A DNA stretch of 64,000 bases, from assembly GCF_023148685.1 (NCBI RefSeq), contig NZ_JAHXNL010000008.1, positions 62,001-126,000 of the forward strand. The letters are read 5' to 3'. Below the pieces are notes generated by a model. That model was not told the DNA's origin and made no database searches. It was given only the letters and a program-made list of their open reading frames with translations. Below, in pieces: positions 8,336 through 33,967 of the stretch; position 1 is the first letter of the stretch; every line of letters starts with the position of its first letter. A program made the translations under genes and the position numbers. Origin of the DNA: Georgenia sp. EYE_87 (GTDB taxonomy: Bacteria; Actinomycetota; Actinomycetes; Actinomycetales; Actinomycetaceae).

Positions 8336-8994
8336 GCGCCGCGGGCCCGGTTCGGGTGCTCGTCGTCGACGACCAGGCGCTGTTCCGGGAAGCCCTCGCC
8401 ACCCTGCTGTCCGTCCGGGACGAGATCGAGGTGGTCGGCGAGGCCGGCGACGGGCTGGAGGCGGTCCGGCTCGCGGCGGCCCTCTCCCCCGACGTCGTCC
8501 TGATGGACCTGCGGATGCCGGTGCTCGACGGGATCGGCGCGACCCGACGGCTGCACGTGGACCAGCCCGCGGTCCGGGTGCTCGCGCTGACCACCTTCGA
8601 CGAGGACGAGGAGGTCTTCGCCGCCCTGCGCGCCGGCGCCCTCGGGTACCTGCTCAAGGACGTCTCCGCCGACCGGCTGGTCGAGGCCGTGCTCGCGGCG
8701 GCGCGCGGCGAGTCGGTGCTCCAGCCGTCGGTCGCCGCCAAGGTCGTCGCGCGGTTCGCCCAGCTGGACGACACCCCGGCGCCCGCCCAGCCGCTCGCCG
8801 TCCCGCTGAGCGACCGGGAGCTGGAGGTCGTCCGCCTGGTGGCGCGGGGCCGGAGCAACCGGGAGATCGCCGCGGAGCTCTACCTCGCGGAGGGCACGGT
8901 GAAGAACCACGTCACGAACGTGCTCCTCAAGCTCGAGGCGCGGGACCGGACGCAGGCGGCGCTGCGTGCCCGGGCGCTGGGGCTGCTGGAGTAG
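8332..8994 (+). CDS. NarL/LuxR-family response regulator
   Basis: The 220-residue regulator has a receiver domain with acidic pair Asp13-Asp14 (LVVDDQALFR), phospho-acceptor Asp59 (VVLMDLRMP), Thr in LALTTFDEDEE and Lys in YLLKDVSAD. A LuxR-type helix-turn-helix follows: LSDRELEVVRLVARGRSNRE, then AAELYLAEGTVKNHVTNVLL. It starts with GTG overlapping the kinase stop. It should bind DNA after phosphorylation by the kinase encoded just upstream. Candidate targets are not evident; the downstream DJ-1-type gene is 94 bp away beyond a hairpin. Confidence 0.92.
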   Translation: MSAAGPVRVLVVDDQALFREALATLLSVRDEIEVVGEAGDGLEAVRLAAALSPDVVLMDLRMPVLDGIGATRRLHVDQPAVRVLALTTFDEDEEVFAALRAGALGYLLKDVSADRLVEAVLAAARGESVLQPSVAAKVVARFAQLDDTPAPAQPLAVPLSDRELEVVRLVARGRSNREIAAELYLAEGTVKNHVTNVLLKLEARDRTQAALRARALGLLE

Positions 8995-9010
8995 CCGGGC
9001 ACACGGGCCA

Positions 9011-9035
9011 GGGGTCACGCCGAGGTCGTGACCCC
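9011..9035 (+). terminator. Hairpin after the two-component operon
   Basis: GGGGTCACG and CGTGACCCC form a perfect 9-bp stem with a 7-nt loop, starting 16 bp after the regulator stop codon. There is no T-run, as is common for actinobacterial terminators. Confidence 0.55.
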
Positions 9036-9088
9036 CGGCATGACGTTCGGCACCTGGCACCGGCGGCGTACGCGCGCACCTTGGAGCC

Positions 9089-10468
9089 ATGAACCGATCG
9101 ATCCGCATCCTCGCCCTGGTTCTCGCCGCGCTGCTCCTGCCCGCAGGGGTCGGGGTCGTCCGCGCCCTGGCCGCCGTCGAGCGCCAGTACGCGCCCCTCG
9201 ACCCGCCCGCCGTCGTCGAACCCGCCGACGGCGGTCGCCCGCACGATCCCGGCCGGCCCACCGCCGTCGTGGTCCTCGGCGCGAACGGCGCCGAGGTCTC
9301 CGACGTCCTCGCCCCCTACGAGGTCCTCGCGACCTCCGGGGCGTTCAACGTCTACACCGTCGCCCCCGGGCGTGAGGTCCTGCCGCTGACCGGCGGCCTG
9401 CACCTGGCCCCGGACCTGACCTTCGCCGAGCTCCGTGACCGGCTGGGTGCGCCGCCCGACGTCGTCGTGGTCCCCGCCATGCCCGACGTCGGCGAGCCGG
9501 ACGCGGAGCCGGTCTCCGCCTGGCTGCGGGAGCAGTCGGCGGGCGGGTCGCTCCTGGTGAGCGTCTGCAACGGCGCGGAGGTGCTCGCGGCGGCGGGCCT
9601 CCTCGACGGGCGCGACGCCACCTCGCACTTCGCGCGGCTCGACGCCCTGGAGCGCCGGTACCCGGAGGTGAGCTGGCGGCGCGGCACCCGCTACGTCGAC
9701 GACGGCGAGGTCATCTCCACCGGCGGCCTGCTGTCGAACATCGACGGCTCGCTGCGGGTGGTGGAGCGGCTCGCCGGCGCGGACGTCGCCAGCCGGACCG
9801 CCGACGAGATCGGCTGGGACCACTACTCCCCCGGCGCGCCGGCCGCGCTGCCTGTGCAGCAGCTGGGCCCGGGCGCCGTGATCTTCCCGGTCAACGCGGC
9901 CTACCGCACCACCGATCTGGGCGTGGTGCTCACCGACGGCGTCGGCGAGCTCGAGCTCGCCTCGGTCTTCGACACCTACAGCGGGCAGTCCCTCGCCGCG
10001 CGCACGGTCGCGGTGACGGTGGCCGACGACGTCGTGACGTCCCGGCACGGACTCCGCTTCGTGCCGGTGGCGGACCTCGACCGGGTCGGGGGCCTCGACC
10101 GCCTCCTGGTGCCCGGCGCCGACGCCGCGGGCCGTCGCGACCCCGACCTGGCCGCCCGGGCCGACGCCCTCGGGCTCGCGCCGGAGTACGTGCACGCCGA
10201 GGCCGGCTTCCCGTTCGAGGCCACCCTGCGCGACCTGGCCCGCACCACAGACCGGCCCACCGCCCGCTGGGCCGCCAAGGTGCTGGAGTACCCGGTCGAC
10301 GGCCTCCGGCTCACCGGCCCGTCCTGGCCCTGGTCCGTGCTGGTCCTGCCGTCCCTTCTCACCCTCGCGGGGCTGGCCGTCGTCGCCGGCGTCGCGCTCA
10401 CCGTCCGCCGACGGGCCCTCTGCCACCGGCTCCGCCCCACCGACCGTCTCACCTGGAGGTTGTCATGA
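9089..10468 (+). CDS. Membrane-anchored tandem DJ-1/PfpI-like protein
   Basis: The 459-residue protein has an N-terminal membrane segment (residues 5-29) and a C-terminal one (WSVLVLPSLLTLAGLAVVAG). Between them lies a DJ-1/PfpI (type 1 glutamine amidotransferase-like) domain with nucleophile-elbow Cys160 in LLVSVCNGAEVLAAAG and a nearby His180. From about residue 265 a second, weaker domain of the same fold (LGVVLTDGVGELELASVFDT, RLLVPGADAAGR) has no Cys at the elbow. Soluble relatives are proteases, glyoxalases or ligand sensors; the catalysed reaction here is unknown. Its stop overlaps the next gene's ATG, so the two are probably made together. Confidence 0.75.
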   Translation: MNRSIRILALVLAALLLPAGVGVVRALAAVERQYAPLDPPAVVEPADGGRPHDPGRPTAVVVLGANGAEVSDVLAPYEVLATSGAFNVYTVAPGREVLPLTGGLHLAPDLTFAELRDRLGAPPDVVVVPAMPDVGEPDAEPVSAWLREQSAGGSLLVSVCNGAEVLAAAGLLDGRDATSHFARLDALERRYPEVSWRRGTRYVDDGEVISTGGLLSNIDGSLRVVERLAGADVASRTADEIGWDHYSPGAPAALPVQQLGPGAVIFPVNAAYRTTDLGVVLTDGVGELELASVFDTYSGQSLAARTVAVTVADDVVTSRHGLRFVPVADLDRVGGLDRLLVPGADAAGRRDPDLAARADALGLAPEYVHAEAGFPFEATLRDLARTTDRPTARWAAKVLEYPVDGLRLTGPSWPWSVLVLPSLLTLAGLAVVAGVALTVRRRALCHRLRPTDRLTWRLS

Positions 10469-20862: not shown

Positions 20863-21450
20863 CTACAGCACGTGGTGGAGGAGCCGCTCCGCCGTCCTGC
20901 GCACGTCCCGCCCCTCGCTCAGGGCCGTGACCGCGGCCCCGTCGACGACGGCGATGACGAGCTCGGGCGGGCAGTCGATCTCCAGCCGCCGCAGCACCCG
21001 GGCGACCGCGCCGTTGAGCCGGTCGCGGCCGGTGCGGTAGGCCGACGTCACCGGCGCGGCGCCGGCCGACGCGATCAGCTGCAGGTAGTGGCCGAGCAGC
21101 GCGTCCCCCTCCGGCAGGCAGGCGCGCAGGATCAGCGCGGTGATCTCGTCCCGGTCCGTCGGCGGCGGCTCCCCCTCGACCGCCTCCGCCACGGCCTCGG
21201 CGCGCGAGGCCCACAGCCCGATGTTGATGCGCCCGGCCTCCCCGAGGAGCTCGTCGAGGCTCTCGAAGTAGTACGTCGTCAGCGACAGCGAGCAGCCGAC
21301 CCGGCGCGCGACGGTGCGGTGCGAGACGCCGGCCGGCCCCTCCTCGCGCAGGATGGCCGCCGCGGCCTCGGCGATCTCGGCCCGGCGCCGCCCGCCCCGG
21401 CCCGTCGTGCTAGGGCGGGCGGCGGACGCGGGGTGGCTCACGGTCGTCAT
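20863..21450 (-). CDS. TetR-family regulator at the end of the creatininase/argB transcript
   Basis: The 195-residue protein has a TetR helix-turn-helix at about residues 22-70 (RAEIAEAAAAILREEGPAGV, then TVARRVGCSLSLTTYYFESL) and a helical effector domain. Its ATG overlaps the stop of the ArgR-like gene by 4 bp, so it is translated with it and is the natural candidate to regulate the permease-creatininase-argB operon. No operator can be assigned with certainty. The effector may be a guanidino compound or arginine, which is inference from context. Confidence 0.85.
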   Translation of the reverse strand: MTTVSHPASAARPSTTGRGGRRRAEIAEAAAAILREEGPAGVSHRTVARRVGCSLSLTTYYFESLDELLGEAGRINIGLWASRAEAVAEAVEGEPPPTDRDEITALILRACLPEGDALLGHYLQLIASAGAAPVTSAYRTGRDRLNGAVARVLRRLEIDCPPELVIAVVDGAAVTALSEGRDVRRTAERLLHHVL

Positions 21451-21824
21451 CTCGTCTCCTCCGCGGGGGCGTCCGGCGTCCCCTTCCGTCGTCCGTCCCC
21501 CGCCGTGCGGGCGGGGCGGGCGCCCCGGACCTCGGCGACGGCCGCGAGATATCTGGCGACGACCCCGGCCGCGATGGTCGAGCGGGTCCTGGTCAGGACG
21601 GTCGCGTCCCCGGCAACGGTAGCGAGGATTGGCGCGATCCGAGCGCGCTCGATGGCCGCCGCGACCGTCGGCGCTCCGCCCGGCGCGGTCGTGAGGAGCA
21701 CCAGGTCGTCCGCCGCGACGACGTCCCGGACGAGGCCGTGGAGGACACGTCCGAGGGGCGGTTCCCCGGCGTCGACCGGCGCCGCCGCCACCGGGGCCGT
21801 CCTCTCCTGCGTCGCGCTGCTCAC
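21447..21824 (-). CDS. ArgR C-terminal (arginine-binding/oligomerisation) domain protein without a DNA-binding domain
   Basis: The 125-residue protein matches only the ligand and oligomerisation half of the arginine repressor: [40 protein letters not shown] and [16 protein letters not shown]. The usual winged-helix N-terminal domain is absent; the GTG start overlaps the argB stop by 4 bp, so there is no room for it. The normal tandem Asp of the arginine site (GDDT) reads GDAT at residues 72-75, one Asp replaced by Ala. It may co-oligomerise with a complete ArgR elsewhere, or sense a related guanidino ligand. Function is inference; the domain match is clear by eye but needs a profile search. 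Confidence 0.65.
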
Positions 21825-22753
21825 AGGGCACCGTCCGGGAGCACCATCGTGCCCATGTCGTCGTCCGTGAAGATCTCCAGGAGCATCGAGTGCTCGAGCC
21901 GGCCGTCGATGACGTGCGCCTGCGGCACGCCGTCGCGCACCGCGTGCAGGCACGCCTCCATCTTCGGGGCCATCCCGGACTGCAGGCCCGGGAGGATCTC
22001 GGCCAGCTCGGACACCGAGACCCGGCGCAGGATCGAGGAGCGGTCGGGCCACCGGGTGTACAGGCCCTCCACGTCGGTGAGCACCACGAGCTTGCGGGCG
22101 CCCAGCGCGACGGCGAGGGCCGCGGCGGCGGTGTCGGCGTTGACGTTCAGGACGTGCTCGGGGTCGCCGATGTCCGGCGCGACGGTGGAGATCACCGGGA
22201 TGCGGTCCGCCGCCAGCAGGTCCTCGACGGCCTGGGGGTTGACGGCGACGACGTCACCGACCATGCCGACGTCGACCTCCTCGCCGTCGACCAGCGCCCG
22301 GCGGCGCCGCGCGCGGAAGAGCCCGCCGTCCTCCCCCGAGATCCCGACGGCGTGCGCGACCTGGGCGTTGAGCAGGCCGACGAGGTCGCGCTGCACCTGG
22401 CCGGTCAGGACCATGCGGACGACGTCCATGATCTCGGGGGTGGTGACCCGCAGCCCGCCGCGGAACTCCGTGGCGATGCCGAGCCGGTCGAGCATGTGCG
22501 AGATCTGCGGGCCGCCGCCGTGGACGACGACGGGCTTGAGGCCCACCCGGTGCAGGAACAGCACGTCCTGGGCGAAGGCCCGCTGCAGCGCGGGGTCGAC
22601 CATGGCGTGACCGCCGTACTTGATGACCACCCGGCCGCCGGCGAAGCGCTCGAGCCAGGGCAGCGCCTGGATGAGGACCTCGGCCTTCTGGTCCGGGCGC
22701 AGGTCCCGCTCCGTGCTGAACGCGGGCGTCCGGTCGATGTGGGCGATGCTCAT
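21821..22753 (-). CDS. argB: N-acetylglutamate kinase
   Basis: The 310-residue enzyme phosphorylates N-acetylglutamate in arginine biosynthesis. Amino-acid-kinase motifs are intact: [66 protein letters not shown] and [20 protein letters not shown]. Its length and sequence are those of a normal ArgB. It is not beside argC, argJ or argD, but follows an NCS1 permease by 12 bp and is coupled to the ArgR-domain gene. ATG 22753 has AAGGGTG upstream; GTG 22762 is an alternative. It may be the only argB of the genome or an extra copy tied to arginine salvage; that cannot be told here. Confidence 0.9.
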
Positions 22754-22765
22754 GGGTGGCACCCT

Positions 22766-24418
22766 TCAGACGGCTCGGTGGCCGAGGATGAGTTTGCGCG
22801 GGCGAGGGGCGGACCCGGGGCGGGGCGACGTCGCCGGACGGGGCGACGTCGCGCTGCCCGCAGGTCCTGAGGTGCTCGCCGACGCGGCGGGACGGTGCGG
22901 GGTCGAGGCACGCGACGGCGTCGTCGGGGCGGCCGCCCGAGCGGCTGGGCCGTTCGCCCGCGAGCTCGACGGCCGCAGCGCCGGGTCCTTCCGGGTCAGC
23001 AGGTAGTACACGGTGCCCGAGCTGAGCCCGGCGGCGAGCCAGGACAGGTCCAGCCCGTGCAGGGCGGCGGACAGCGGGCCCTGGAGCGCGGGGACCATCC
23101 CGTGCATGAACAGCCAGGCGGACAGCAGCCCGGTCCCGAAGGCCGCGAGCGCACGCCAGTCGACGTCCCGCAGCCGCGGCGTCCCCACCGGGTCGAAGTG
23201 GTGGCTGAAGTCGGTGGTCCGGCGGTCGAGCACGAAGTAGCGCACGCCGACGATCGCGCCCCAGGTGGCGGTCCAGCCCACGCAGGCGGACAGCCAGGCG
23301 TCGAGCGACCTCGCCATGTCCTCGGAGAAGACGAACGCGGTGACCGCGCCCATGGCCGCCACGCCGACCCCGATGTTGATCGCGCGCCGGCCGAGCCTGA
23401 TGTCGAGGCTCTGGAGGGTCACGGTGAAGGTGTAGATGTTCAGGATGTTGGTCGCGATGGGCCCGTGCAGCACCAGCAGCAGGACGGGGATGGCCATCGC
23501 GCCGAAGTTGTCGACGATGAGCTCGCCGGGGTCCACCGACCCGTTCGTGGTGGCGAGCGTGGCGCCCAGGAGGCCGAGCCACAGGACGGGCAGGATCTGG
23601 CCCCCCGCGCTGGCCAGGTAGAGCTTCCGGCGCGGCACGGCGTTGCTGACGAAGCGCGAGTAGTCCGAGGCGTACCCCAGCCAGGTCAGGCCCCACCCGA
23701 CGCCGATGGCGGTCATTACGCCCGACATCGCGACGATCCGCTCCCAGCCGGTCAGCGCGCCGCTGGGCGGGCCCGCGTAGGACCAGTCGATGTCCATGAA
23801 GAACCAGGCGGCGATCGACATCGCGACGAGGATGGCGATCGTCGGCGGGACGGTCCACCTCTCGAACGTGGAGATCGCCCGGTAGCCGAACAGGGCGATG
23901 GCCACCTGCAGGCACATCACGGCCGCGGCCACGGCGAACTTCCAGCCGTAGTTGGTCAGGCTCGGGTCGACCAGGCCGATCTTCCCGAACAGCGCCATGA
24001 CCAGGTCCAGGACGATCCACGTGTTGACGGCGCACCAGCCGATGACCACCGTGCACTGGATCAGCGCCGGCAGGTAGTTCCCGCGGCGGCCGAAGACGCC
24101 CCGGCCCAGGACCATGCCGGTGACGCCGCTGCGCTGACCGAGGAGAACGAAGAAGCCGAAGACCACCATGCCCAGGACGTTGCCGACGGCGAGGACGCCG
24201 AAGGTGTCCCAGAGCCCGAGACCCATGTTGATGCCCAGGGCACCGAGGACCCAGTTGATGGGGGCGATGTTCGCGCCGGCCCAGATCCAGAACTGGCCGC
24301 CGACCTTCGTGGTGCGCCGCTCGTCCGGGATGGGCTGCAGCGTCTCCTCCACGTCGCCACGTACGTCGCCCACCTCGGCCGGACCGGCCGAGGGGGCGCC
24401 ATGCGCGTGTCGGAGCAT
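22766..24418 (-). CDS. NCS1-family (cytosine/allantoin-type) permease, possible creatinine importer
   Basis: The 550-residue protein has 12 transmembrane helices of the nucleobase:cation symporter-1 family: GGQFWIWAGANIAPINWVLG, VVFGFFVLLGQRSGVTGMVL, RGVFGRRGNYLPALIQCTVV and GWGLTWLGYASDYSRFVSN. NCS1 carriers import purines, cytosine, allantoin or hydantoins, all ring compounds of similar size to creatinine. It begins 5 bp after the creatininase stop, and permeases of this type accompany creatininase genes in other bacteria, so creatinine uptake is the leading hypothesis. The C-terminal 75 residues are a disordered Pro/Ser/Ala tail. Substrate is inference. Confidence 0.85.
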   Translation of the reverse strand: MLRHAHGAPSAGPAEVGDVRGDVEETLQPIPDERRTTKVGGQFWIWAGANIAPINWVLGALGINMGLGLWDTFGVLAVGNVLGMVVFGFFVLLGQRSGVTGMVLGRGVFGRRGNYLPALIQCTVVIGWCAVNTWIVLDLVMALFGKIGLVDPSLTNYGWKFAVAAAVMCLQVAIALFGYRAISTFERWTVPPTIAILVAMSIAAWFFMDIDWSYAGPPSGALTGWERIVAMSGVMTAIGVGWGLTWLGYASDYSRFVSNAVPRRKLYLASAGGQILPVLWLGLLGATLATTNGSVDPGELIVDNFGAMAIPVLLLVLHGPIATNILNIYTFTVTLQSLDIRLGRRAINIGVGVAAMGAVTAFVFSEDMARSLDAWLSACVGWTATWGAIVGVRYFVLDRRTTDFSHHFDPVGTPRLRDVDWRALAAFGTGLLSAWLFMHGMVPALQGPLSAALHGLDLSWLAAGLSSGTVYYLLTRKDPALRPSSSRANGPAARAAAPTTPSRASTPHRPAASASTSGPAGSATSPRPATSPRPGSAPRPRKLILGHRAV

Positions 24419-24423
24419 GGTTC

Positions 24424-25203
24424 TCACATCCCGAACTCGTGCCGCACGGCGGCGACCATCCCGGCGGACGCGCGGTCGAGCAGGATCCGACCCTTCTCCG
24501 CGGTGGCGTCGGCGCCGGAGGAGAGGCAGCCGGACGACGGCGTGACCTCGGGGATTGCGGGCAGGACGTCGTAGGTGGGCAGCACGGCGGGCGGGATGTC
24601 GGCGACCCGGCTCATGTCCACCCTGTCGGGGTGGAGCAGGAGCATGAGGGAGGTCTCCAGGACACCCCCGTGCTCGAGGTCCCAGCCGGGGAAGCCGTCC
24701 GGGTAGAGCGTGGCGATGGTGTCGTCGTCGACGAAGTCCCAGTAGGACAGCAGCATCACCTTGATGTCCCGCACGCCCTCGAGGTGCAGCTCGCGCACCG
24801 CGAGGTCCACCCCCTCGTAGAGGAACTGGTAATTCTCGTAGTGACCGTTGACGAAGGCCACCTTCCGCACGCCGTGGCGGGCGAGCTCGAGCACCAGGCG
24901 CTTCGCGATGGAGATGACCGTCTCGGCGTCCATGCTCGTGGTGCCGGTCAGGTGGTTTCCCCCGCCGGAGCGCTGCTGGGACTTGTAGCCGTAGACGACC
25001 GGTGCGGCCACGAGCGACGCTGTCTGCCCGGCGACCGCGCCCGCCATCGCACGCGAGAGCAGGACGTCGACGTTCATGGGCATGTGCGGCCCGTGCTGCT
25101 CGATGGAACCGACCGGGATGAGCACCGGCGCGCCCTGCGCGACCCGCTCGCGGTAGGTGAAGGCGTCGAGCTCCTCCATGTAGACGGTGTCGCGCTCGGT
25201 CAT
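24424..25203 (-). CDS. crnA: Creatininase (creatinine amidohydrolase)
   Basis: The 259-residue protein matches true Pseudomonas-type creatininase across its length, not just the wider creatininase/MftE family. Metal ligands are present at Glu35, His37, Asp46, His121 and Glu123, and catalytic His178. The lid tryptophans Trp155 and Trp174 are kept, as are KSQQRSGGGNH, FVNGHYEN, LLSYWDFV and GWDLEHGG. It interconverts creatinine and creatine in the cytoplasm. The ATG overlaps the DMT-permease stop (TGATG), and the NCS1 permease follows after 5 bp. No creatinase (creatine to urea plus sarcosine) is found in the window; a GATM-type amidinotransferase is encoded upstream instead. Confidence 0.9.
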   Translation of the reverse strand: MTERDTVYMEELDAFTYRERVAQGAPVLIPVGSIEQHGPHMPMNVDVLLSRAMAGAVAGQTASLVAAPVVYGYKSQQRSGGGNHLTGTTSMDAETVISIAKRLVLELARHGVRKVAFVNGHYENYQFLYEGVDLAVRELHLEGVRDIKVMLLSYWDFVDDDTIATLYPDGFPGWDLEHGGVLETSLMLLLHPDRVDMSRVADIPPAVLPTYDVLPAIPEVTPSSGCLSSGADATAEKGRILLDRASAGMVAAVRHEFGM

Positions 25204-26234
25204 CACAGCTCAGCTCCCACGTTCTCCTTGACGGCGCGCCCACCGACCGGCACGCCCTTCCTGCGCCTGCTGCGCCGCCCGCCGGCGGTGCCGCCCTGGG
25301 TGAAGGCCTCGACGGCGTCGGGGCTCTTTCTCGTCGAGATGAGGATCTGGCTCACGCCGCCGGCGATGATGAGCAGGCCGCCCAGCCCCTGCCAGAGCGT
25401 CATCGCCTCCGAGAAGAGGATCCAGCCCAGGATGGAGGCCATGATGGTCTCCTGGTAGGCGATCGTGGCGAGCTCGCCGGCGAAGAGGATCTTGGTCGCC
25501 AGCGTCATGAAGTAGAACGCGCCGAAGCCGGTGATGGTGGCGGCGATCGCGAGCACGACCCAGCCGCGCGTCGTCATCTCCGACAGGTCGGGGCGGCTGA
25601 AGATCAGGATGATGCCGATCGTGATCGTGGCGAACGTGAAGTTGAACCAGGACCGCGTGTTGGAGTCCACGTCGGTGCGGTAGCGGCTGACGAAGAGGTA
25701 GAGACCGTACGCGACGCCGGAGCCGAGGGCGATGAGGTTGCCCGTCATGTACTGCGGGTCGAGCGAGAGGGTCATGCCGAGCCCGCCGCCGGGGCTGTAG
25801 GTGATGATGCCGATGATGATCAGCATGCCGAGGATCACTGCGCCGAGCGAGCCGAACATCGACTTCTTGAAGGGCTCCTTCAGGAAGATCGACGCCAGCA
25901 CGGTGGAGTACACGGGACCTGTGTAGATCAGGAACGACGCGTTGGCCAGGGTCGTCATCTGCGTGGAGATGACGTACAGCGCGGACAGCAGGCCCAGGAA
26001 GACGCCGGAGAACACGATCCCGGGGGTGATCCGGGTGTTCCTCACGTGGACGAAGCGTCGGCCGATCATGAAGATCAGCGTCATCCCGATGAACCCGGCC
26101 GCGTTGCGACAGAACGAGATGAACTCGCCCGGGGCCTCGATGTAGCGGGCGAACGCACCGATGCCGCCCATGAGCGACGATGACAGGAACATGAAGCCGA
26201 AGCCGCGAAGCTTGAGCTTTCTTGCGGGATCCAT
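25203..26234 (-). CDS. EamA/DMT-superfamily permease
   Basis: The 343-residue protein has ten transmembrane helices arranged as two EamA halves: MFLSSSLMGGIGAFARYI, SFLIYTGPVYSTVLASIFLK and LATIAYQETIMASILGWILF with the second-half glutamate. Members carry amino acids, nucleotide sugars or small metabolites in or out. GAAGGAG lies before ATG 26234. It is the first gene of the transcript with creatininase and the NCS1 permease; export of a by-product such as sarcosine, glycine or ornithine is conceivable but unproven. The tail is strongly basic (GGRRSRRRKGVPVGGR). Confidence 0.85.
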   Translation of the reverse strand: MDPARKLKLRGFGFMFLSSSLMGGIGAFARYIEAPGEFISFCRNAAGFIGMTLIFMIGRRFVHVRNTRITPGIVFSGVFLGLLSALYVISTQMTTLANASFLIYTGPVYSTVLASIFLKEPFKKSMFGSLGAVILGMLIIIGIITYSPGGGLGMTLSLDPQYMTGNLIALGSGVAYGLYLFVSRYRTDVDSNTRSWFNFTFATITIGIILIFSRPDLSEMTTRGWVVLAIAATITGFGAFYFMTLATKILFAGELATIAYQETIMASILGWILFSEAMTLWQGLGGLLIIAGGVSQILISTRKSPDAVEAFTQGGTAGGRRSRRRKGVPVGGRAVKENVGAEL

Positions 26235-26272
26235 CGGGACTCCTTCGGGAATCACGAGACAGAGCTGAGGGT

Positions 26273-26371
26273 ACGTACCGCGGGGCCGTGGGCCCTGGTG
26301 CGGGGCCGGTGGGCCCCTTCTGCAGGGCCCTCTGGCCCTCGGGTCGGGGCCTGCCGCGCCCCGCGGTACGT
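26273..26371 (-). promoter_or_regulatory. Structured leader upstream of the DMT permease/creatininase operon
   Basis: Fourteen-base complementary arms at 26273-26286 and 26358-26371 (ACGTACCGCGGGGC and its complement) enclose 71 bp rich in GGGCCC-type segments that can form inner hairpins. The element ends 38 bp before the permease ATG within the 194-bp gap. It could be a regulatory RNA leader; I could not match it to a known guanidine riboswitch class. Confidence 0.4.
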
Positions 26372-26381
26372 GGGTGTGGTG

Positions 26382-26423
26382 CTGGTCGGGGCCGGGCGGC
26401 CGATCCCGCCCGACCCCGACCAG
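26382..26423 (-). terminator. Hairpin terminator after the amidinotransferase gene
   Basis: CTGGTCGGGG (26382-26391) pairs with CCCCGACCAG (26414-26423), with an inner GGGCGG/CCGCCC stem. It begins 5 bp after the amidinotransferase stop and separates that gene from the permease operon. Confidence 0.65.
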
Positions 26424-26428
26424 AGCTG

Positions 26429-27556
26429 TCAGACGAGGGTGGGGTCCTCGACCTGGTTCGGGAAGTAGTCCTCCATCGAGCCCTCGCGGTAGACGTCCGC
26501 GGTGGCGCAGTGCAGACCGCCGCCGAAGGCGTACGCGTCGCGGAACGGCACCGGGATGACGTTCATCCCGAGCTTGTCCATCTGCTCCGCCTGGTAGACC
26601 TCGGACTCCTCGACGATGACCGTCTTGTGGTCCAGGACCAGGCAGTTCATCGACAGCCACACCGAGGAGTAGCACAGCGGCGGCGGGTCGTCGTGGGCCG
26701 GCTTGGCGGCCTCGACGATCTGCCAGTCGTTGGCCTCGAAGATCGCCCGCTGCTCCACCGGGAGAGGGCGGTGGGGGTTGTTGATGATCAGGCCCGGGCG
26801 CAGCGGGACGAAGGTCGCGTCGATGTGGATCGGGTAGGGGTCACCGGGGAAGTTGACCGAGTGGACCCGCATGTCCGGGTAGTACCGCTTGAACCACTCC
26901 ATGGCCTTGCGGTTGGTGGTCAGGCCGTGCTGGATGAACAGGTCCTTGCCCACGCGCATCACGTCGGCCGCGTCCCACATGGGCTCGACCTCGGTGGTGA
27001 CGAAGTCCTTGTTGGCGGTGCGCTCGAGGCGCTCCTCCAGCGAGATCTTCTCGTCGTAGTAGTTGTGCTTGTAGGACTTGTCCGTCAGGCGCGGGCGGGG
27101 CGCCTGCGACCATTTGAACTCCGGGTCGTTCTCGAAGTACTCGTTCATCAGCGGCCAGTACGCCAGGTACTCGAAGTACCGGCACCGGAACGAGTTCGCC
27201 GAGGCCATGATCTCGTTGCCGATGGTGAGCAGGATGTCGCGGGGCGGCATCTGGGTCATCCCGGACTCGGTGCGGAAGTCAGGCGTCTTGATCTCCTGGT
27301 TCCACTGCAGCGGGGTGGGCCGGTCGACCTTGACGCCGTGCTTCTCGAGCACCTTGACGTAGTTGTCGAGCTGCGCGTTGGCCTTCTCCACGGTCTCCGT
27401 GGGGCGGGGGCCCCACATGCCGCGCATCTCCGAGTCGACCGGGACCTTCTCCGAGGTGGCCGGCTCCTCCGGGGGGATGACGCTCATGTCGGCGCGGCCC
27501 ACGATCGCGTGCTTCAGCGGGTCGAAGTCGTTCCACGAGTTGACGATCTTTGGCAT
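26429..27556 (-). CDS. GATM-type amidinotransferase (L-arginine:glycine amidinotransferase family)
   Basis: The 375-residue enzyme aligns along its length with vertebrate glycine amidinotransferase: NSWNDFDPLKHAIVGRAD, KTPDF, MPPRDILLTIGNEIM and DATFVPLRPGLIINNPHRP. The catalytic triad is intact as Asp195 (MWDAADVMR), His244 (YPIHIDATF) and Cys350 (GGGLHCATADV), with the Asp-His spacing of 49 seen in human GATM. The family reversibly moves an amidino group between arginine and an amine acceptor such as glycine or ornithine. Placed between the arginine-deiminase genes and creatininase, it could run towards arginine from guanidinoacetate or creatine; that direction is inference. ATG 27556 has GAGGAG at good spacing; GTG 27568 is a poorer start. 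Confidence 0.85.
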   Translation of the reverse strand: MPKIVNSWNDFDPLKHAIVGRADMSVIPPEEPATSEKVPVDSEMRGMWGPRPTETVEKANAQLDNYVKVLEKHGVKVDRPTPLQWNQEIKTPDFRTESGMTQMPPRDILLTIGNEIMASANSFRCRYFEYLAYWPLMNEYFENDPEFKWSQAPRPRLTDKSYKHNYYDEKISLEERLERTANKDFVTTEVEPMWDAADVMRVGKDLFIQHGLTTNRKAMEWFKRYYPDMRVHSVNFPGDPYPIHIDATFVPLRPGLIINNPHRPLPVEQRAIFEANDWQIVEAAKPAHDDPPPLCYSSVWLSMNCLVLDHKTVIVEESEVYQAEQMDKLGMNVIPVPFRDAYAFGGGLHCATADVYREGSMEDYFPNQVEDPTLV

Positions 27557-27579
27557 CTCAGAACTCACTCCTCATTCGC

Positions 27580-27630
27580 GGTGCGCGGGGTCGCGCACCT
27601 TCTTCTGTGTCTGGTGCGTGTGTCGCACCT
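27580..27630 (-). promoter_or_regulatory. Two related hairpins upstream of the amidinotransferase
   Basis: Within the 199-bp gap between arcC and the amidinotransferase, GGTGCGCG/CGCGCACC (27580-27599) and GGTGCG/CGCACC (27614-27630) form hairpins sharing the GGTGCG arm. They may mark the end of the arc transcript, or a leader of the amidinotransferase. I see no gene in the gap. Confidence 0.4.
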
Positions 27631-27755
27631 CCCCGCCCCCTTCGGGCGGGTCCGTCTGTCCGCCACGGGGTCGCGGCGGGGTCCTGCTGGGCAGTTATGG
27701 CTGGTGCGTCGGTGACATCACCTCGGTCCGGCGCGGTCGGTGGCCGGCGGGGCGC

Positions 27756-28736
27756 TCATGCCCGGCGCACCCTGGTCTCGGGCGGCTGGGGCACGGGCGG
27801 GCGGATGTCGTCCGGCCCGCCGTAGTTGCCGCCCGGGGTGATGACGGTGCCCGCGGTGCCGGCGATGATCGCCATCGCGTCCTCCAGGCGGCCGATGGCG
27901 GCCATGTCCCCGGTGAGCTCGACGAACCGGCAGGCGGCGTCGACCTTCGGGCCCATGGAGCCGGCGGCGAAACCCAGGTCGCGCATCGCGCCGGGCGTGG
28001 ACCGGTGGATCTCGCGCTGGGTCGGCGTGCCGTAGTCGGCCATGACGGCGGGGACGTCGGTGAGGATCATCAGCGCGTCGGCCTCGAGCGCCTCCGCCAG
28101 GACGGCGGCGGTGAGGTCCTTGTCGACGACGGCCTCGACGCCCTGGAGCTTGCCGAACTCGTTGCGGATGACCGGCACGCCTCCACCGCCGGCACAGACG
28201 ACGACGGCGCCCGCGGACAGCATGGTGCGGATCAGCCGCGTCTCGATGACGCGCTGGGGGCGGGGCGAGCCGACGACGCGGCGGTAGTACTCGCCGTCGG
28301 CCTTCATGACCCAGCCGCGCTCGGCGGCGAAGGCGTCGGCCTCCTCCTTGGAGTAGACCTGGCCGACGAACTTGGTGGGGTTCTTGAAGGCCGGGTCGCC
28401 GGCGAGGACGAGGGTCTGGTTGACGATGCTGGCCACGTGCCGCCCGGGCAGGTTGTTCTGCAGGGCCTGCAGCAGCCAGTACCCGATCATCCCCTGCGTC
28501 TGCGCGCCGAGAGTGTCGAAGGGGTACGGCTCGCTGAGGTTGGGGTCGTTGGCGGACTCCAGGGCGAGGACACCGACCTGCGGGCCGTTGCCGTGGGTGA
28601 TGACGAGCTCGTGCTCCTCCGCCAGGGGCGCCAGGGCGCGGACGGCGGTCTCGACGTTGTCGATCTGGACGGCGGCGTCGGGACGCTCGCCCCGCTTGAG
28701 GAGGGCGTTGCCGCCGAGGGCTACGACGATGCGCAC
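27756..28736 (-). CDS. arcC: Carbamate kinase
   Basis: The 326-residue enzyme makes ATP from ADP and carbamoyl phosphate, releasing NH3 and CO2, the last step of the arginine deiminase pathway. Signatures are RIVVALGGNALLKRGE, HELVITHGNGPQVGVLALES, GAVVVCAGGGGVPVIRNEFG, VEAVVDKDLTAAVLAEALEA and MGPKVDAACRFVELTG. Length is normal. It starts with GTG 3 bp after the arcB stop. The downstream gap of 199 bp holds two hairpins before the amidinotransferase. Confidence 0.95.
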   Translation of the reverse strand: MRIVVALGGNALLKRGERPDAAVQIDNVETAVRALAPLAEEHELVITHGNGPQVGVLALESANDPNLSEPYPFDTLGAQTQGMIGYWLLQALQNNLPGRHVASIVNQTLVLAGDPAFKNPTKFVGQVYSKEEADAFAAERGWVMKADGEYYRRVVGSPRPQRVIETRLIRTMLSAGAVVVCAGGGGVPVIRNEFGKLQGVEAVVDKDLTAAVLAEALEADALMILTDVPAVMADYGTPTQREIHRSTPGAMRDLGFAAGSMGPKVDAACRFVELTGDMAAIGRLEDAMAIIAGTAGTVITPGGNYGGPDDIRPPVPQPPETRVRRA

Positions 28737-28739
28737 GGC

Positions 28740-29804
28740 TCAGCGCCCCAGTGTGGCGACCATGACCGCCTTGATCGTGTGCATGCGGTTCTCGGCCTGG
28801 TCGAAGACCACGGACGCCTCGGACTCGAAGACCTCGTCGGTGACCTCGAGGGCGTCCATGCCAGTCTTCTGGTAGATGTCCTCCCCCACCTTGGTGCCGC
28901 GGTCGTGGAACGCGGGCAGGCAGTGGAGGAACTTCACGTCCGGGTTCGCGGTGGCGGCCATGAGCTCGGCGTTGACCTGGTAGTCCTTCAGCAGGGCGAT
29001 CCGCTCGTCCCAGACCTCCTTGGGCTCGCCCATGGAGACCCACACGTCGGTGTAGACGAAGTCCACGCCCCTCACGCCCGCGGTGACGTCGTCCGTGACG
29101 GTGATCCGGGCACCGGTGGCGGCCGCGATCTGGCGCGCCTGCTCGACGATCTCGGGGGCGTTCTGCAGCGCCGCGGGGGCGACCATGCGCACGTCCATGC
29201 CGAGCATGGCGCCGGAGATCAGCAGGGAGTTGCCCACGTTGTTGCGGGCGTCGCCGAGGTAGGCGAAGGCGATGTCGCCGTCGGCCTTGCCGGAGTGCTC
29301 GCGCATGGTGAGCTGGTCGGCGAGCATCTGGGTGGGGTGCCACTCGTCCGTCAGGCCGTTCCACACCGGCACGCCGGACTGCGCCGCGAGGACCTCCACG
29401 GCCTCCTGGCTCTTGCCGCGGTACTCGATGCCGTCGTAGAAGCGGCCGAGCACGCGGGCGGTGTCCGCCACCGACTCCTTGTGGCCCATCTGCGAGCCGC
29501 TCGGGTCGAGGTAGGTCACGTGGGCGCCCTGGTCGAAGGCTGCGACCTCGAACGAGCACCGGGTACGGGTGGAGGTCTTCTCGAAGATCAGGGCGATGTT
29601 CTTGCCGGCCAGGCGCGGGATCTCGGAGCCGGACCGCTTCTCCGCCTTCAGCGCGGCGGAGAGGTCGAGCAGCGAGCGCCACTCGTCCGGGGTGAAGTCG
29701 AGCTCCTTGAGGAAGCTGCGCCCGTGGAGGGGGTGGGGCATGCGGGTCGGCGCGCTGGCCGTCGTGCGGGTGGGGTTGGCGATCCCCGGGTGTACCTGCG
29801 ACAT
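28740..29804 (-). CDS. arcB: Ornithine carbamoyltransferase (catabolic, arcB-type context)
   Basis: The 354-residue enzyme has the carbamoyl-phosphate motif [20 protein letters not shown], the ornithine-side segment [20 protein letters not shown] and catalytic [14 protein letters not shown], with [20 protein letters not shown] near the end. Here it most likely runs phosphorolytically, citrulline plus phosphate to ornithine plus carbamoyl phosphate, because it sits between arcA (2-bp gap) and arcC (3-bp gap). A strong GAGAGGAAA ribosome site precedes the ATG at 29804. The same fold serves biosynthesis (argF), so direction rests on context. Confidence 0.94.
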
Positions 29805-29806
29805 TT

Positions 29807-31063
29807 TCAGATTTCCTCTCGGATGGTGGGGCAGCTCATGCACCGCGGACCTCCGCGTCCGCGGCCGAGCTCGGTCCCGGGGACCTCCAGCACCTCGATG
29901 CCGTTGGCCCGCAGGTAGGCGTTGGTCGCGACGTTCCGCTCGTAACCGACGACGACGCCGGGGGCGACCGCGAGCGTGTTGCAGGCGTCGTCCCACTGCT
30001 CGCGCTCGGCGGCGTGGGAGTCCTGCGGGGTGGTGAGGATCCGGATGTCCGCCAGGTCGAGCGCGCCGGCGATGACCCGGTGCATGTCCTCCGCCGGGTG
30101 GCGGGTGACGCTCAGCTCCTTGGGGGTGCGTCCGGGACGGATGGACAGGGAGGGCAGCATGCCCAGCCCCGCGTACTTGGTGAAGGACTCCTGGTCGACC
30201 ATCGTCATGACGGTGTCGAGGTGCATGAACGCGCGCGCCTTCGGCATCTCCAGGGCGATGACGTGGTCGGCGGACCCCTCGGCGAACAGGCGGCCGGCGA
30301 GGCGCTCGACCCCCTGCGGCGAGGTGCGCTCGCTCAGCCCGACGAGGACGGCGCCGTTGCCGATGACGAGGACGTCCCCGCCCTCGACGGTCGCGGCCCC
30401 CTCGTCCGAGCCCGTGGACCACACGTGCTGGCCGCCGTCGGCGAATCGCGGGTGCCAGCGGTAGATGGCCTCGTAGTTGACCGTCTCGCGCATCCGGGCG
30501 ACCTTGCGCATCGAGTTGATGGCCACGCCGTCGTAGACCCAGCAGGAGGTGTCGCGGGTGAAGAGGTGGTTCGGCAGGGGCGCGAGGACGAAGTCGTCGG
30601 CGCCCATCGTGCCGAGGGCCACGGAGCTGGGCTCGACGATCTGCTCGAGCAGCTCGCCCTTGGTGATGCCGGCTATCAGGACGCTGGCGAGCGCGGCGCC
30701 GTCGAGGTTGTCGGCGTGGTTGCGCAGGGCGTCGATGGCGCCGAGGCCGAAGATCCGCTCGTCCAGGACGTGGTCCAGGACGTGCCGGCGGGCACTGAGG
30801 TTCTCGAGCGTCTCGGCGAGGAGCTCCTCGAGGTAGAGGACCTCGATGTCCCGGTCGCGCAGCACCTGGGCGAACCGGTCGTGCTCCCACTGCGCCTGGC
30901 TGACCCACAGCACGTCGTCGAACAGGAGGTCGTCCTTGTTGGACGGCGTCAGCCGCATCATCTCCCGGCCGGGGCGGTGGAGGATCACCTGCCTCAGCGG
31001 GCCGACCTCCGAGCCGACCCGGTAGGTCGTGCCACTAGCCGTGGCCGCTACGTTCAACGTCAT
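29807..31063 (-). CDS. arcA: Arginine deiminase
   Basis: The 418-residue enzyme hydrolyses arginine to citrulline and ammonia. Catalytic features are visible: [56 protein letters not shown], the [13 protein letters not shown] His segment and the terminal nucleophile Cys in [15 protein letters not shown]. It is the first gene of arcABC. I start at ATG 31063; GTG 31069 is equally possible. A palindromic site (31141-31158) lies about 80 bp upstream. With arcB and arcC it yields one ATP per arginine. Confidence 0.95.
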
Positions 31064-31463
31064 CGTCACTTGCCCTTCGTCTCGTCGTCGAGGACCGATG
31101 AGATGAGCAAACACCTTCCTGCACGCCCGTTCAGGGGACCTTGTACCTAAGGTCACAAAATTGGCCTGGCGAATGCGGTTCGAGCCTGCACGTGCGTTCA
31201 GGTCTTACGGACGGAAGGCGGCTTCGTTGCGTTCGCCGGCGCGCGAGCGCGGCATTTGGGCCACGAACGCTGCCCCCGAGCCACGAGCGCGGCACCTGAC
31301 TGGCCAGCGCTGCGCGACACGCGAGCACGGTGGGCGAGAGGCGAGCGGGGCAGGCGTGTGCCGCGGAGCAGAACGGGGTGCGGCGCGGAGATTCGCGTCT
31401 CATCTGCCACCGGCGGGCGTCAGGGCGATGGCTTATTGGCCCGCCGTGGCATACAACTCGTCT
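31064..31463. other. 400-bp intergenic region between arcA and a divergent MFS gene
   Basis: Apart from the dyad at 31141-31158, I see no credible gene: all open frames here lack ribosome sites and continue as extensions of flanking genes. Imperfect GAGCGCGGCA/GAGCGCGGCAC direct repeats occur around 31245-31300. It should hold both divergent promoters. Confidence 0.5.
31141..31158. promoter_or_regulatory. Near-palindrome upstream of arcA (candidate operator)
   Basis: TTGTACCT, one base, then AGGT-C-ACAA form a nearly perfect 17-18-bp dyad 78 bp upstream of arcA in the gap shared with the MFS gene. The TTGT..ACAA ends resemble GntR- or Crp/Fnr-type half-sites. No regulator of those families is encoded in the island. 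Confidence 0.4.
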
Positions 31464-33011
31464 GTGAGCGACGATCCCGATCTCATCCGCGTCGAGGGCA
31501 CCGACAGGGTCTTCCGGCGCAGCCGTGTCCTCGTCGTCCTGCTCATCCCCATCGCGATGGCGCTCGTCGCCGTCTCCTCGATCAACGTCGCCCTGCCGAC
31601 GATCTCGCAGACCCTCGACGCCACCGACTCCGACCTGCAGTGGGTGCTCTCCGGGTACGCGCTCACCTTCGGCATCAGCCTGGTGCCCTCGGGGCGCGCG
31701 GGGGACGTGCTCGGCCGGGGCCGGTTCTTCGTCCTCGGCCTCCTGGTGTTCTCGCTCGCCTCGCTGGCCTGCGGGCTGGCCCCGAACGCGGAGTTCCTCA
31801 ACGTCTCGCGGTTCGTCCAGGGCGTCGGGGCGGGCATGTACAACCCCCAGACGATGGGCATGATCCAGCAGTACTGGCACGGCCTGGAGCGGGCCAAGGC
31901 CTTCGCCCTCTTCGGCCTGGTCGTCGCCTTCTCCGTGGCCGTCGGCCCGGTGCTGGCCGGCTCCATCATCCAGACGTTCGGCCCCGAGATCGGCTGGCGG
32001 GCCACCTTCGTCATCAACTTCCCGTTCGGGCTGCTCGGCTGCTTCCTGGCGCTGCGCTGGTTCCCGTTCGGCAAGGAGCGCGCCCGGCGGGCTGCGAAGC
32101 GGGCCGCGAAGCGGGCCGCGAGGACCGCCCGGGCGGACGCGGCGGCGGGCGGCGCCGTCGTCCCCGCCCTGCCGCGCGAGAGGGTGGACCTCGACCCCGT
32201 GGGCACGGTGCTCCTCGTTCTCGCCGTGCTCTGCGTGATGCTGCCGTTCATGTCCGGCCGCGGCGGGGCGGCGTGGCTGCTGCTGGCGGCGGGCGCGGTG
32301 CTCGTGGCCGCCTGGGTGCTCTGGGAGCGGCGCTACAAGGCGCGCGGGCGGGCGCCGATGGTGGACCTGGCGCTCTTCTCGTTCGCGTCGTTCTCCAACG
32401 GCACCGCCGTCGCCGGCACGTTCTTCCTCGGCTCGACGTCGATCTTCGTCGTCGTCGCCCTCTACATGCAGAACGGCCTGGGCGCGAGCGCGCTCGAGAC
32501 CGGCCTGATCGGGCTGCCCAACGCGATCGTCTCCGCCTTCGCCTCCATGTGGGCCGGGCGCCGGACCATGACCAGCGGCCGCACCATCATCATCGGCGCG
32601 CTGGCCCTGGTGATCGCGGGCGTCGGGCTCAGCGTGGGCGTGGCGGTGCTGATCGAGCAGTACGGCATCAGCTTCTGGTGGCTGGCCCTCACGCTCATGC
32701 TGTGCGGGCTGGGGCAGGGCGGCCTCGGCGCCGCGAACCAGACGCTCTCCCTCGAGGACGTCCCCACCACCTACGGCGGCACTGCCGGCGGGGTGAAGTC
32801 CACCGCCGAGCGCATCGGCACCGCCGTCGGCAACGCGATGATCACCGGCGTCTTCTTCGGCTTCGTGGGCGGCGGCGCCTGGACCACCGGCTTCGCCGCC
32901 GCGTACGGGGCGATCGCCCTGTGCCTCCTGGTCGCGCTGCTGGCCGCCGTGCACGACCGCAAGGTCTGCGGGGACGGTCCGCCCGCGCCGCCGCGGCGCG
33001 CGGTGCCGTAG
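31464..33011 (+). CDS. MFS drug/metabolite exporter, EmrB/QacA (DHA2) type
   Basis: The 515-residue protein has 14 transmembrane helices of the DHA2 family: ALVAVSSINVALPTISQTLD (helix 1), LQWVLSGYALTFGISLVPSG, RAGDVLGRGRFFVLG (motif A region) and FVQGVGAGMYNPQTMGMI. These are proton-driven exporters of drugs, cations or metabolites. The GTG at 31464 gives MSDDPDLIRVEG; TACAAC 12 bp upstream could be a -10 box and the mRNA leaderless. ATG 31428 is an alternative. Its divergence from arcA may indicate co-regulation, but no functional link is shown. Confidence 0.87.
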   Translation: MSDDPDLIRVEGTDRVFRRSRVLVVLLIPIAMALVAVSSINVALPTISQTLDATDSDLQWVLSGYALTFGISLVPSGRAGDVLGRGRFFVLGLLVFSLASLACGLAPNAEFLNVSRFVQGVGAGMYNPQTMGMIQQYWHGLERAKAFALFGLVVAFSVAVGPVLAGSIIQTFGPEIGWRATFVINFPFGLLGCFLALRWFPFGKERARRAAKRAAKRAARTARADAAAGGAVVPALPRERVDLDPVGTVLLVLAVLCVMLPFMSGRGGAAWLLLAAGAVLVAAWVLWERRYKARGRAPMVDLALFSFASFSNGTAVAGTFFLGSTSIFVVVALYMQNGLGASALETGLIGLPNAIVSAFASMWAGRRTMTSGRTIIIGALALVIAGVGLSVGVAVLIEQYGISFWWLALTLMLCGLGQGGLGAANQTLSLEDVPTTYGGTAGGVKSTAERIGTAVGNAMITGVFFGFVGGGAWTTGFAAAYGAIALCLLVALLAAVHDRKVCGDGPPAPPRRAVP

Positions 33012-33130
33012 CGGCCGCCGCCGCCGCCGGGTGAGCACCCTCACACCGCGTCCCGGACGCCGGTCCCACCGGGCGCAGGCCGGGCGTTCGTAGCGTGGCA
33101 GGGTCCCCGCCCCGGCACGGAAGGCCGCCC

Positions 33131-33967
33131 ATGTCCTACGTCGAGCCCTCCGCCGTCGTCGACTCGATGGTCGCCCTCGGGACCAAGAAGGCCCACCTCA
33201 GCCGCGGCCAGCTCACGCTGCGCGGCGCGCTCGGCGGGATGTTCCTCGGGGCCGCCACCATGCTGGCGCTGACCGCCTCGACCCAGACCGGGCTCCCCGT
33301 CGCCGGGGCGCTCCTCTTCCCGGTCGGCTTCGTCATCGTGCTGCTGCTCGGCTTCGAGATGGTCACCGGCTCCTTCGCGGTCGTCCCGCTCGCCGTCCTC
33401 GAGCATCGGGCGGTGCCCGTCGAGATGGCACGGACGTTCTGGTGGGTGATCGTCGGGCACGCCCTCGGCGGGGCCGTCCTCGGCCTGCTGTTCGCGGCCA
33501 CCGTCAGCGAGATGTGGACGACGCCGGACGCCCCCGTCGCGCAGGCCCTCGTCGACCTCGCCGTGCACAAGACCCTTGACCACCAGCACCTCGGCGCGGC
33601 CGGGATCCTGCTGGTGGTGATCAAGGGCGTGCTGTGCAACTGGCTGGTCGGCACGGGCGTGGTCCTGGGGCTGACGTCGACGAGCACCGGCGGGAAGATC
33701 CTCGCGATGTGGCTGCCGGTGATGACGTTCTTCGCGCTCGGCCTCGAGCACGGCGTGGTGAACCTGTTCGTGATCCCCGCGGCCATGATGCTCGGGGCGC
33801 CGATCGGGTTCGGCGACTGGTGGCTGTGGAACCAGATCCCGGCCCTCGTGGGCAACTTCCTGGGGGCGCTGGTGCTCGTCGCGCTGGGCATGTACGTGGC
33901 GCACCGGCGCCCCGCGGGCTCCCCCGCCGCCCGGCCGGTCGAGCCCGCGGTGGGCGAGGCCGCCTGA
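33131..33967 (+). CDS. Formate/nitrite transporter (FNT) family channel
   Basis: The 278-residue protein has six transmembrane helices and the FNT marks: KAHLSRGQLTLRGALGGMF, LLLGFEMVTGSFAVVPLAVL, IKGVLCNWLVGTGVVL and LGLEHGVVNLFVIPAAMMLG with the central His. Pentameric members pass formate, nitrite or hydrosulfide, and some act in acetate or lactate efflux. The sequence is divergent within the family (EMVTGSF in place of the usual ELFTGN), so substrate is not assigned. It is convergent with the carboxylation island and has no obvious partner. Confidence 0.82.
   Translation: MSYVEPSAVVDSMVALGTKKAHLSRGQLTLRGALGGMFLGAATMLALTASTQTGLPVAGALLFPVGFVIVLLLGFEMVTGSFAVVPLAVLEHRAVPVEMARTFWWVIVGHALGGAVLGLLFAATVSEMWTTPDAPVAQALVDLAVHKTLDHQHLGAAGILLVVIKGVLCNWLVGTGVVLGLTSTSTGGKILAMWLPVMTFFALGLEHGVVNLFVIPAAMMLGAPIGFGDWWLWNQIPALVGNFLGALVLVALGMYVAHRRPAGSPAARPVEPAVGEAA

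Follow-up and report, generated by a model that had tools for sequence, protein, structure and literature searches.

A candidate ATP-yielding route from creatinine

What becomes of creatine in a bacterium that encodes a creatininase beside an amidinotransferase and the arginine deiminase genes, with no recognizable creatinase? Creatinine, the standard marker of kidney function, and creatine are guanidino compounds that animal hosts offer to bacteria. The question is raised by a run of genes in Georgenia sp. EYE_87 (GCF_023148685.1; genome G000, 4.35 Mb and 99% complete), found in a 64,000-nucleotide stretch of contig NZ_JAHXNL010000008.1 (hereafter the window). On the minus strand, these genes follow the order arcA-arcB-arcC, GATM-type amidinotransferase (hereafter AT), DMT permease, creatininase, NCS1 permease, argB and a TetR-like gene (Table 1), and all are intact. 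A first-pass annotation of the window had proposed that the AT and arcABC together replace a urea-forming creatinase, and the genes it named are indeed present, uninterrupted and on a single strand; argB and the TetR-like gene extend this same-strand run beyond those that it listed. We regard it as likely, at a probability of about 0.7, that the operon encodes a pathway that breaks down creatinine and creatine with a gain of ATP, and in which the AT stands in for creatinase.

In the proposed route, the NCS1 permease would import creatinine, and the creatininase, for which the family is clear and the activity predicted, would open it to creatine. Amidinotransfer is a reaction type near equilibrium, and the AT, working in the catabolic direction, would pass the amidino group of creatine to ornithine, giving sarcosine and arginine. 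ArcA, ArcB and ArcC, whose families are clear, would then break arginine down to ornithine, with release of two NH3 and CO2 and a gain of one ATP. Since arcABC would regenerate the ornithine, the latter would be a catalyst, with ArcA supplying the pull, and the extra argB, which fits a need for catalytic ornithine, may supply it. The DMT permease may export the amine product, because no SoxB was found that would use it. By our own balance, the net reaction would be creatinine + 2 H2O + ADP + Pi → sarcosine + 2 NH3 + CO2 + ATP, whereas creatinase, which the AT would replace, gives sarcosine and urea with no ATP. Here, we infer the substrates, the direction, the transport roles and the ATP gain from sequence.

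Creatininase is partnered by either the amidinotransferase or creatinase

We observe directly the gene content and order of the operon, their recurrence in relatives, the alternative partnering of creatininase and the conservation of the AT active site. When aligned to 1j2t, the window creatininase retains H178 and also E34, H36, D45, H120, E122, W154 and W174, which comprise the metal ligands and the lid tryptophans, and with its TIGR04448 score (Table 1) this agrees with its description as a canonical creatininase. A second creatininase-family match in the same genome (G000:C34:52303-52884) scores 105.5 bits, below the creatininase cut-off.

A search of 199 related genomes (G numbers denote genomes and L numbers loci) identified the AT in 34, after a partial match of 27% identity in G056 was dropped and that genome counted among the 165 without AT. 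Creatininase exceeded its cut-off for 16 genes in 14 of these 199 genomes, and creatinase was found in 8. Ten of the 16 creatininase genes adjoin an AT (G000, G001, G005, G007 with two, G012, G037, G050, G068 and G098), four adjoin a creatinase (G001, G002, G003 and G159) and none adjoins both, while one (G052) lies next to a type-A DMT gene (defined below) at a contig end and one has neither partner. Ten genomes have both the AT and creatininase (Fisher p 3.8e-6), though Georgenia is over-represented in the sample, and this and the other Fisher value given below are not corrected for kinship. Creatinase itself was identified by its match to 1chm (567 bits), and a tblastn search with it over 126 locus sequences gave matches in L116-L119 alone. 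Moreover, among 15 genomes searched for SoxB, four of the eight creatinase genomes included, SoxB was present in exactly these four (G001, G002, G003 and G159). As a single locus pairs creatininase with the AT or with creatinase but never with the two together, the pattern is the one expected if the AT does creatinase's job. The proposed replacement thus has genomic support, which is not proof: the partners of creatininase are either creatinase, in genomes that also have SoxB, or the AT and a DMT permease, mostly with arcABC.

The window's own genome is in keeping with the reported absence of creatinase, none being found at E 1e-60. Its single Creatinase_N protein was considered as a creatinase and rejected, in that its 34 PDB matches are peptidases (prolidases and aminopeptidase P) and ectoine hydrolase, with no creatinase chain among them. 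By eye, the gene of this protein adjoins hydantoinase B- and A-like genes (L035:4478-9589). No SoxB-type sarcosine oxidase was found in this genome at E 1e-40, in a search that did not take in monomeric oxidases, and no match to an arginase-family hydrolase was seen.

Amidinotransferase and its link to the arginine deiminase pathway

The best match of the AT in the PDB, over its length, is human arginine:glycine amidinotransferase (AGAT; 1jdx, E 4.8e-83), followed by SxtG, HsvA and StrB. It is thus full-length, and its catalytic triad is intact as first described, with the equivalents of human Asp254, His303 and Cys407 all retained. In fact, these three, and the equivalents of D170, D305, R322, S354 and S355, are invariant in all 90 AT sequences aligned, and as the catalytic residues are invariant, the AT should be active. 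The AT has no NCBIfam match, and its match to Pfam ADI is below threshold (20.7 bits, cut-off 22.8). Among named genomes, a scan returned 338 AT relatives, and the best 79 loci, many cut by contig ends, were all examined. Within these, Georgenia thermotolerans has the nearest AT, at 95%, and identity to the window's AT spans 81-95%, as against 37-87% for arcA. As a separate observation, the AT is duplicated in tandem in a Georgenia-group genome (G005; L124:6987-8156 and 8375-9625), and the two copies are 99.2% identical.

The arginine deiminase trio of the window is complete, with ArcB and ArcC above their NCBIfam cut-offs and ArcA well above that of NF002381 (517.8 bits, cut-off 414), though slightly below that of TIGR01078 (477.6, cut-off 489.1), which only 6 of the 199 genomes pass. 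An arcA match is found in 34 of 34 AT genomes (in G087 by contig-end fragments only) versus 82 of the 165 others, a few of these being weak ones such as G009 and G033 (Fisher p 1e-9), and it lies within 5 kb of the AT in 28 of the 34. The notion that an AT locus with no adjoining arcABC means no arginine deiminase pathway was therefore rejected. Pfam and NCBIfam-type scans found no ArcD-type antiporter among the operon proteins, and the window's genome has three weak TIGR00905 matches, none over the cut-off or on contig C37, other antiporter families lying outside the search. Four relatives (G012, G050, G052 and G068) do have an over-cut-off TIGR00905 antiporter, which does not adjoin the AT. 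A second arcA-arcB pair (arginine deiminase with ornithine carbamoyltransferase) of the window's genome is located at L034:1903-5462, where the neighbours appear by eye to be of the arginine-biosynthesis kind.

Distribution and exchange of transport cassettes

The best 79 loci among the 338 AT relatives belong to Actinomyces, Schaalia, Mobiluncus, Actinobaculum, Cutibacterium, Austwickia and many Eggerthellaceae, and parts of the cluster turn up again in many relatives from the mouth, gut and urinary tract. That the gene order recurs in other genera argues against a chance neighbourhood. By clustering, the families in these 79 loci are MFS (67), DMT (63), TetR (54, where it follows), arcC (41), arcB (40), arcA (35) and creatininase (14). 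All 14 of these creatininase loci carry the AT and a type-A DMT permease, and at least one arc gene is present in 11; L071, L085 and L092 start at or near a contig end.

A tree of the DMT permeases placed 19 of 19 creatininase-adjacent members (type A) on one side of a single branch and 50 of 50 MFS-adjacent members (type B) on the other, with an SH-like support of 100 (Shimodaira-Hasegawa-like, FastTree, with a long-branch warning; the 9 of 78 rows adjoining neither gene were not counted). The creatininase-adjacent clade spans Georgenia to gut Eggerthellaceae (Rubneribacter, Gordonibacter). No DMT match was obtained in the four creatinase loci, which fits sarcosine export where no oxidase uses sarcosine. 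This division is not mirrored in the AT tree, where creatininase linkage requires 11 changes, at least 5 of them forced by starred branches, with six contig-cut rows left unlabelled and two (L059_13834 and L066_8345) labelled as creatininase-linked by distance, though standing in front of a type-B DMT gene. Moreover, identical AT proteins occur in the creatininase-linked and MFS-linked contexts of Rubneribacter, and with the 11 changes this led us to reject a separate clade of creatininase-linked ATs. The AT thus looks like a constant core around which transport cassettes have been exchanged.

The gene after creatininase differs as well. It encodes an NCS1 permease in the window and four Georgenia-group loci, while in the 14 named loci it is BCCT-like in 7 (one scanned), MFS in 6 and NCS1 in 1, so a general succession of creatininase by NCS1 was rejected. 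An NCS1 homologue, 58% identical, adjoins creatininase in creatinase locus L118. In most AT loci seen, a ProP-like importer takes the place of creatininase, the MFS protein being, as judged from two scanned members, a metabolite:H+ symporter closest to ProP. NCS1, BCCT and ProP-like carriers usually work in uptake, and the latter two take betaine-like zwitterions, which creatine resembles. Such MFS-type loci may use creatine or guanidinoacetate directly, and in most relatives seen the AT would be served by a ProP-like MFS carrier and the second DMT clade, probably for these compounds. Taken more broadly, we find it rather probable, if a shade less so than for the Georgenia operon alone, that the AT loci represent a widespread energy pathway of largely host-associated Actinomycetota. 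In this pathway, creatine, creatinine and probably guanidinoacetate would give their amidino group to catalytic ornithine via the AT, arcABC would conserve ATP, and interchangeable cassettes (type-A DMT, creatininase and NCS1 or BCCT; type-B DMT and MFS) would be set on the constant AT core.

Two further features were noted in Eggerthellaceae. A conserved protein of ~186-189 residues, with no Pfam match, is encoded between the DMT gene and creatininase or MFS (cluster 35, 10 loci; e.g., L085:3895-4455 and L100:11585-12154). By eye, an ABC transporter set (binding protein, permease and ATPase), perhaps another substrate supply, lies upstream of the AT in L079, L081, L082, L094, L100, L102, L111 and L114.

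Alternative readings

Several points weigh against a creatinine route. Its central step, amidino transfer from creatine or guanidinoacetate to ornithine, is itself putative. All 90 AT sequences have Tyr and Ile where human AGAT has N300 and M302, and the pocket appears unlike that of AGAT, the only close homologue of known substrate. With these two residues changed, a creatine donor role is not readable from the sequence, and we do not file the AT as an arginine:glycine amidinotransferase proper. That creatininase is present in only 14 of the 79 AT loci suggests that creatinine is not the common substrate. The creatininase of G078 lies next to an MFS gene in a genome with neither AT nor creatinase, and G. 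thermotolerans (G001) has both systems, with an AT cluster and a creatinase cluster at separate loci. Both DMT clades are found in one operon in L043, L052 and L122, which is unexplained if both modules release sarcosine. The NCS1 permease gave no match against the PDB, making its substrate a guess, and sarcosine oxidases of the monomeric type could be present even where SoxB is absent. Finally, urease is present in the window's genome (in 3 of 11 AT genomes in all, among 15 genomes searched), so that urea from creatinase would not be waste here.

Among the alternatives, the one that survives best, though we think it unlikely, is that the AT is catabolic with guanidinoacetate or another guanidino acid as its true donor and glycine as the product, creatininase being a side entry or opening cyclic guanidinoacetate. 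This would accord with the closeness of the AT to arginine:glycine amidinotransferase, and with most AT loci lacking creatininase and having an MFS gene and a DMT permease of the other clade, as though the cell released another product. However, the creatininase-linked and MFS-linked ATs form no separate clades and can be identical, so one enzyme would serve both, and relatives of the MFS carrier adjoin creatininase without AT in creatinase locus L116 and in L120, which points to creatine. Moreover, no creatinase was found where creatininase stands with the AT, and creatine there would need an outlet. Considerably less probable is the synthetic direction, in which arginine and sarcosine or glycine would yield creatine or guanidinoacetate, and creatininase would make creatinine for export. 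While the family normally works this way when creatine is made, according to the available sections of a study of cyanobacterial arginine catabolism (PMC2242806), the operon's own arcABC would consume the arginine donor, sister loci pair creatininase with creatinase, and the partner carriers (NCS1, BCCT and ProP-like) belong to uptake families. Least of all do we favour an AT for a secondary metabolite, with arcABC and creatininase as neighbours sharing no pathway: a polyketide role is proposed for Actinobaculum massiliense in the accessible part of PMC6314084, and that of PMC2242806 sees the amidinotransferases of prokaryotes as acting chiefly in the making of antibiotics and toxins, but the neighbours conserved over the 79 loci are arcABC, DMT, MFS, TetR and creatininase, no recurring polyketide synthase family was seen there (only some clusters being annotated), and in A. 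massiliense the gene numbers of the polyketide synthase (01364) and the AT (01650) lie far apart.

Comparison with known systems

The proposed creatinine route shares with the creatininase-creatinase-sarcosine oxidase pathway its creatininase start, a presumed sarcosine product and, in sister loci, NCS1 and BCCT carriers. It would differ in having the AT in creatinase's place and in yielding ATP, not urea, in a genome where neither creatinase nor SoxB was found. It has in common with the arginine deiminase pathway a complete arcABC, first in the operon, whereas an ArcD-type arginine/ornithine antiporter is not among the operon genes and the arginine would come from creatine via the AT. With AGAT and its bacterial kin SxtG, HsvA and StrB, the AT shares family, full length and the catalytic Asp/His/Cys; unlike AGAT, it has the Tyr and Ile noted above and would be used in the reverse, catabolic direction. 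The creatinine deaminase route, via N-methylhydantoin, is another bacterial route and one of three given in the accessible sections of a review of infant-gut nitrogen (PMC10215027), none of which proceeds via an amidinotransferase; no such deaminase is encoded in the window operon. The first-pass annotation knew of no described pathway of this form, and we likewise found none in the open-licence full-text literature, subscription papers and preprints being outside the search; the accessible portions of PMC4617892 and PMC8745165 have nothing on it.

If correct, the proposal would add a further bacterial creatinine route and a catabolic use of transamidination, and it would give an energy-conserving use to a family of enzymes known for making creatine, antibiotics and toxins. 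A gain of ATP, with ammonia in place of urea, would account for the retention of the cluster in oral, gut and urinary Actinomycetota. It would also make sense of the so far unexplained high levels of AT and ArcABC in catheter biofilm: according to the portion of the A. massiliense proteome study available (PMC6314084), AT, ArcA, ArcB and ArcC are each >8-fold higher there in vivo than in vitro, which is attributed to a polyketide pathway. In A. massiliense strain FC3, the locus (L075) reads arcABC-AT-DMT-MFS-TetR, with no creatininase within the locus stretch examined.

Gene calls and neighbouring genes

The tight spacing reported around creatininase was reproduced, the stop of the DMT gene overlapping the creatininase GTG start at 25206, and a possible NCS1 start, ATG 24418, lying 5 bp past the creatininase stop.

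Table 1. Coordinates of the operon genes in the window and the matches that support their assignment.
Gene and product	Position	Strand	Basis
arcA, arginine deiminase	29807..31063	-	Pfam ADI 394.9 bits; ATG at 31063
arcB, ornithine carbamoyltransferase	28740..29804	-	TIGR00658 414.6 bits, cut-off 280.85
arcC, carbamate kinase	27756..28736	-	TIGR00746 363.3 bits, cut-off 358.25
AT, putative creatine (or guanidinoacetate):ornithine amidinotransferase	26429..27568	-	full-length human AGAT match; alternative ATG 27556
DMT/EamA permease, type A (creatininase-linked clade), putative amine-product exporter	25203..26234	-	Pfam EamA 87 bits; tree
creatininase (creatinine amidohydrolase)	24424..25206	-	TIGR04448 339.8 bits, cut-off 235
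NCS1-family permease, putative creatinine importer	22766..24418	-	Pfam Transp_cyt_pur 124.6 bits; TIGR00800 107.7, below cut-off
argB, acetylglutamate kinase, putative source of catalytic ornithine	21821..22762	-	TIGR00761 236 bits, cut-off 151.3
TetR-like regulator	20863..21450	-	TetR_N 20.6 bits, below cut-off 24 (scanned with over-long start)

Divergent from the operon, on the plus strand, are a drug-efflux-like MFS gene (31161-33011) and a gene for a membrane protein that by eye is formate/nitrite transporter-like (33095-33967).

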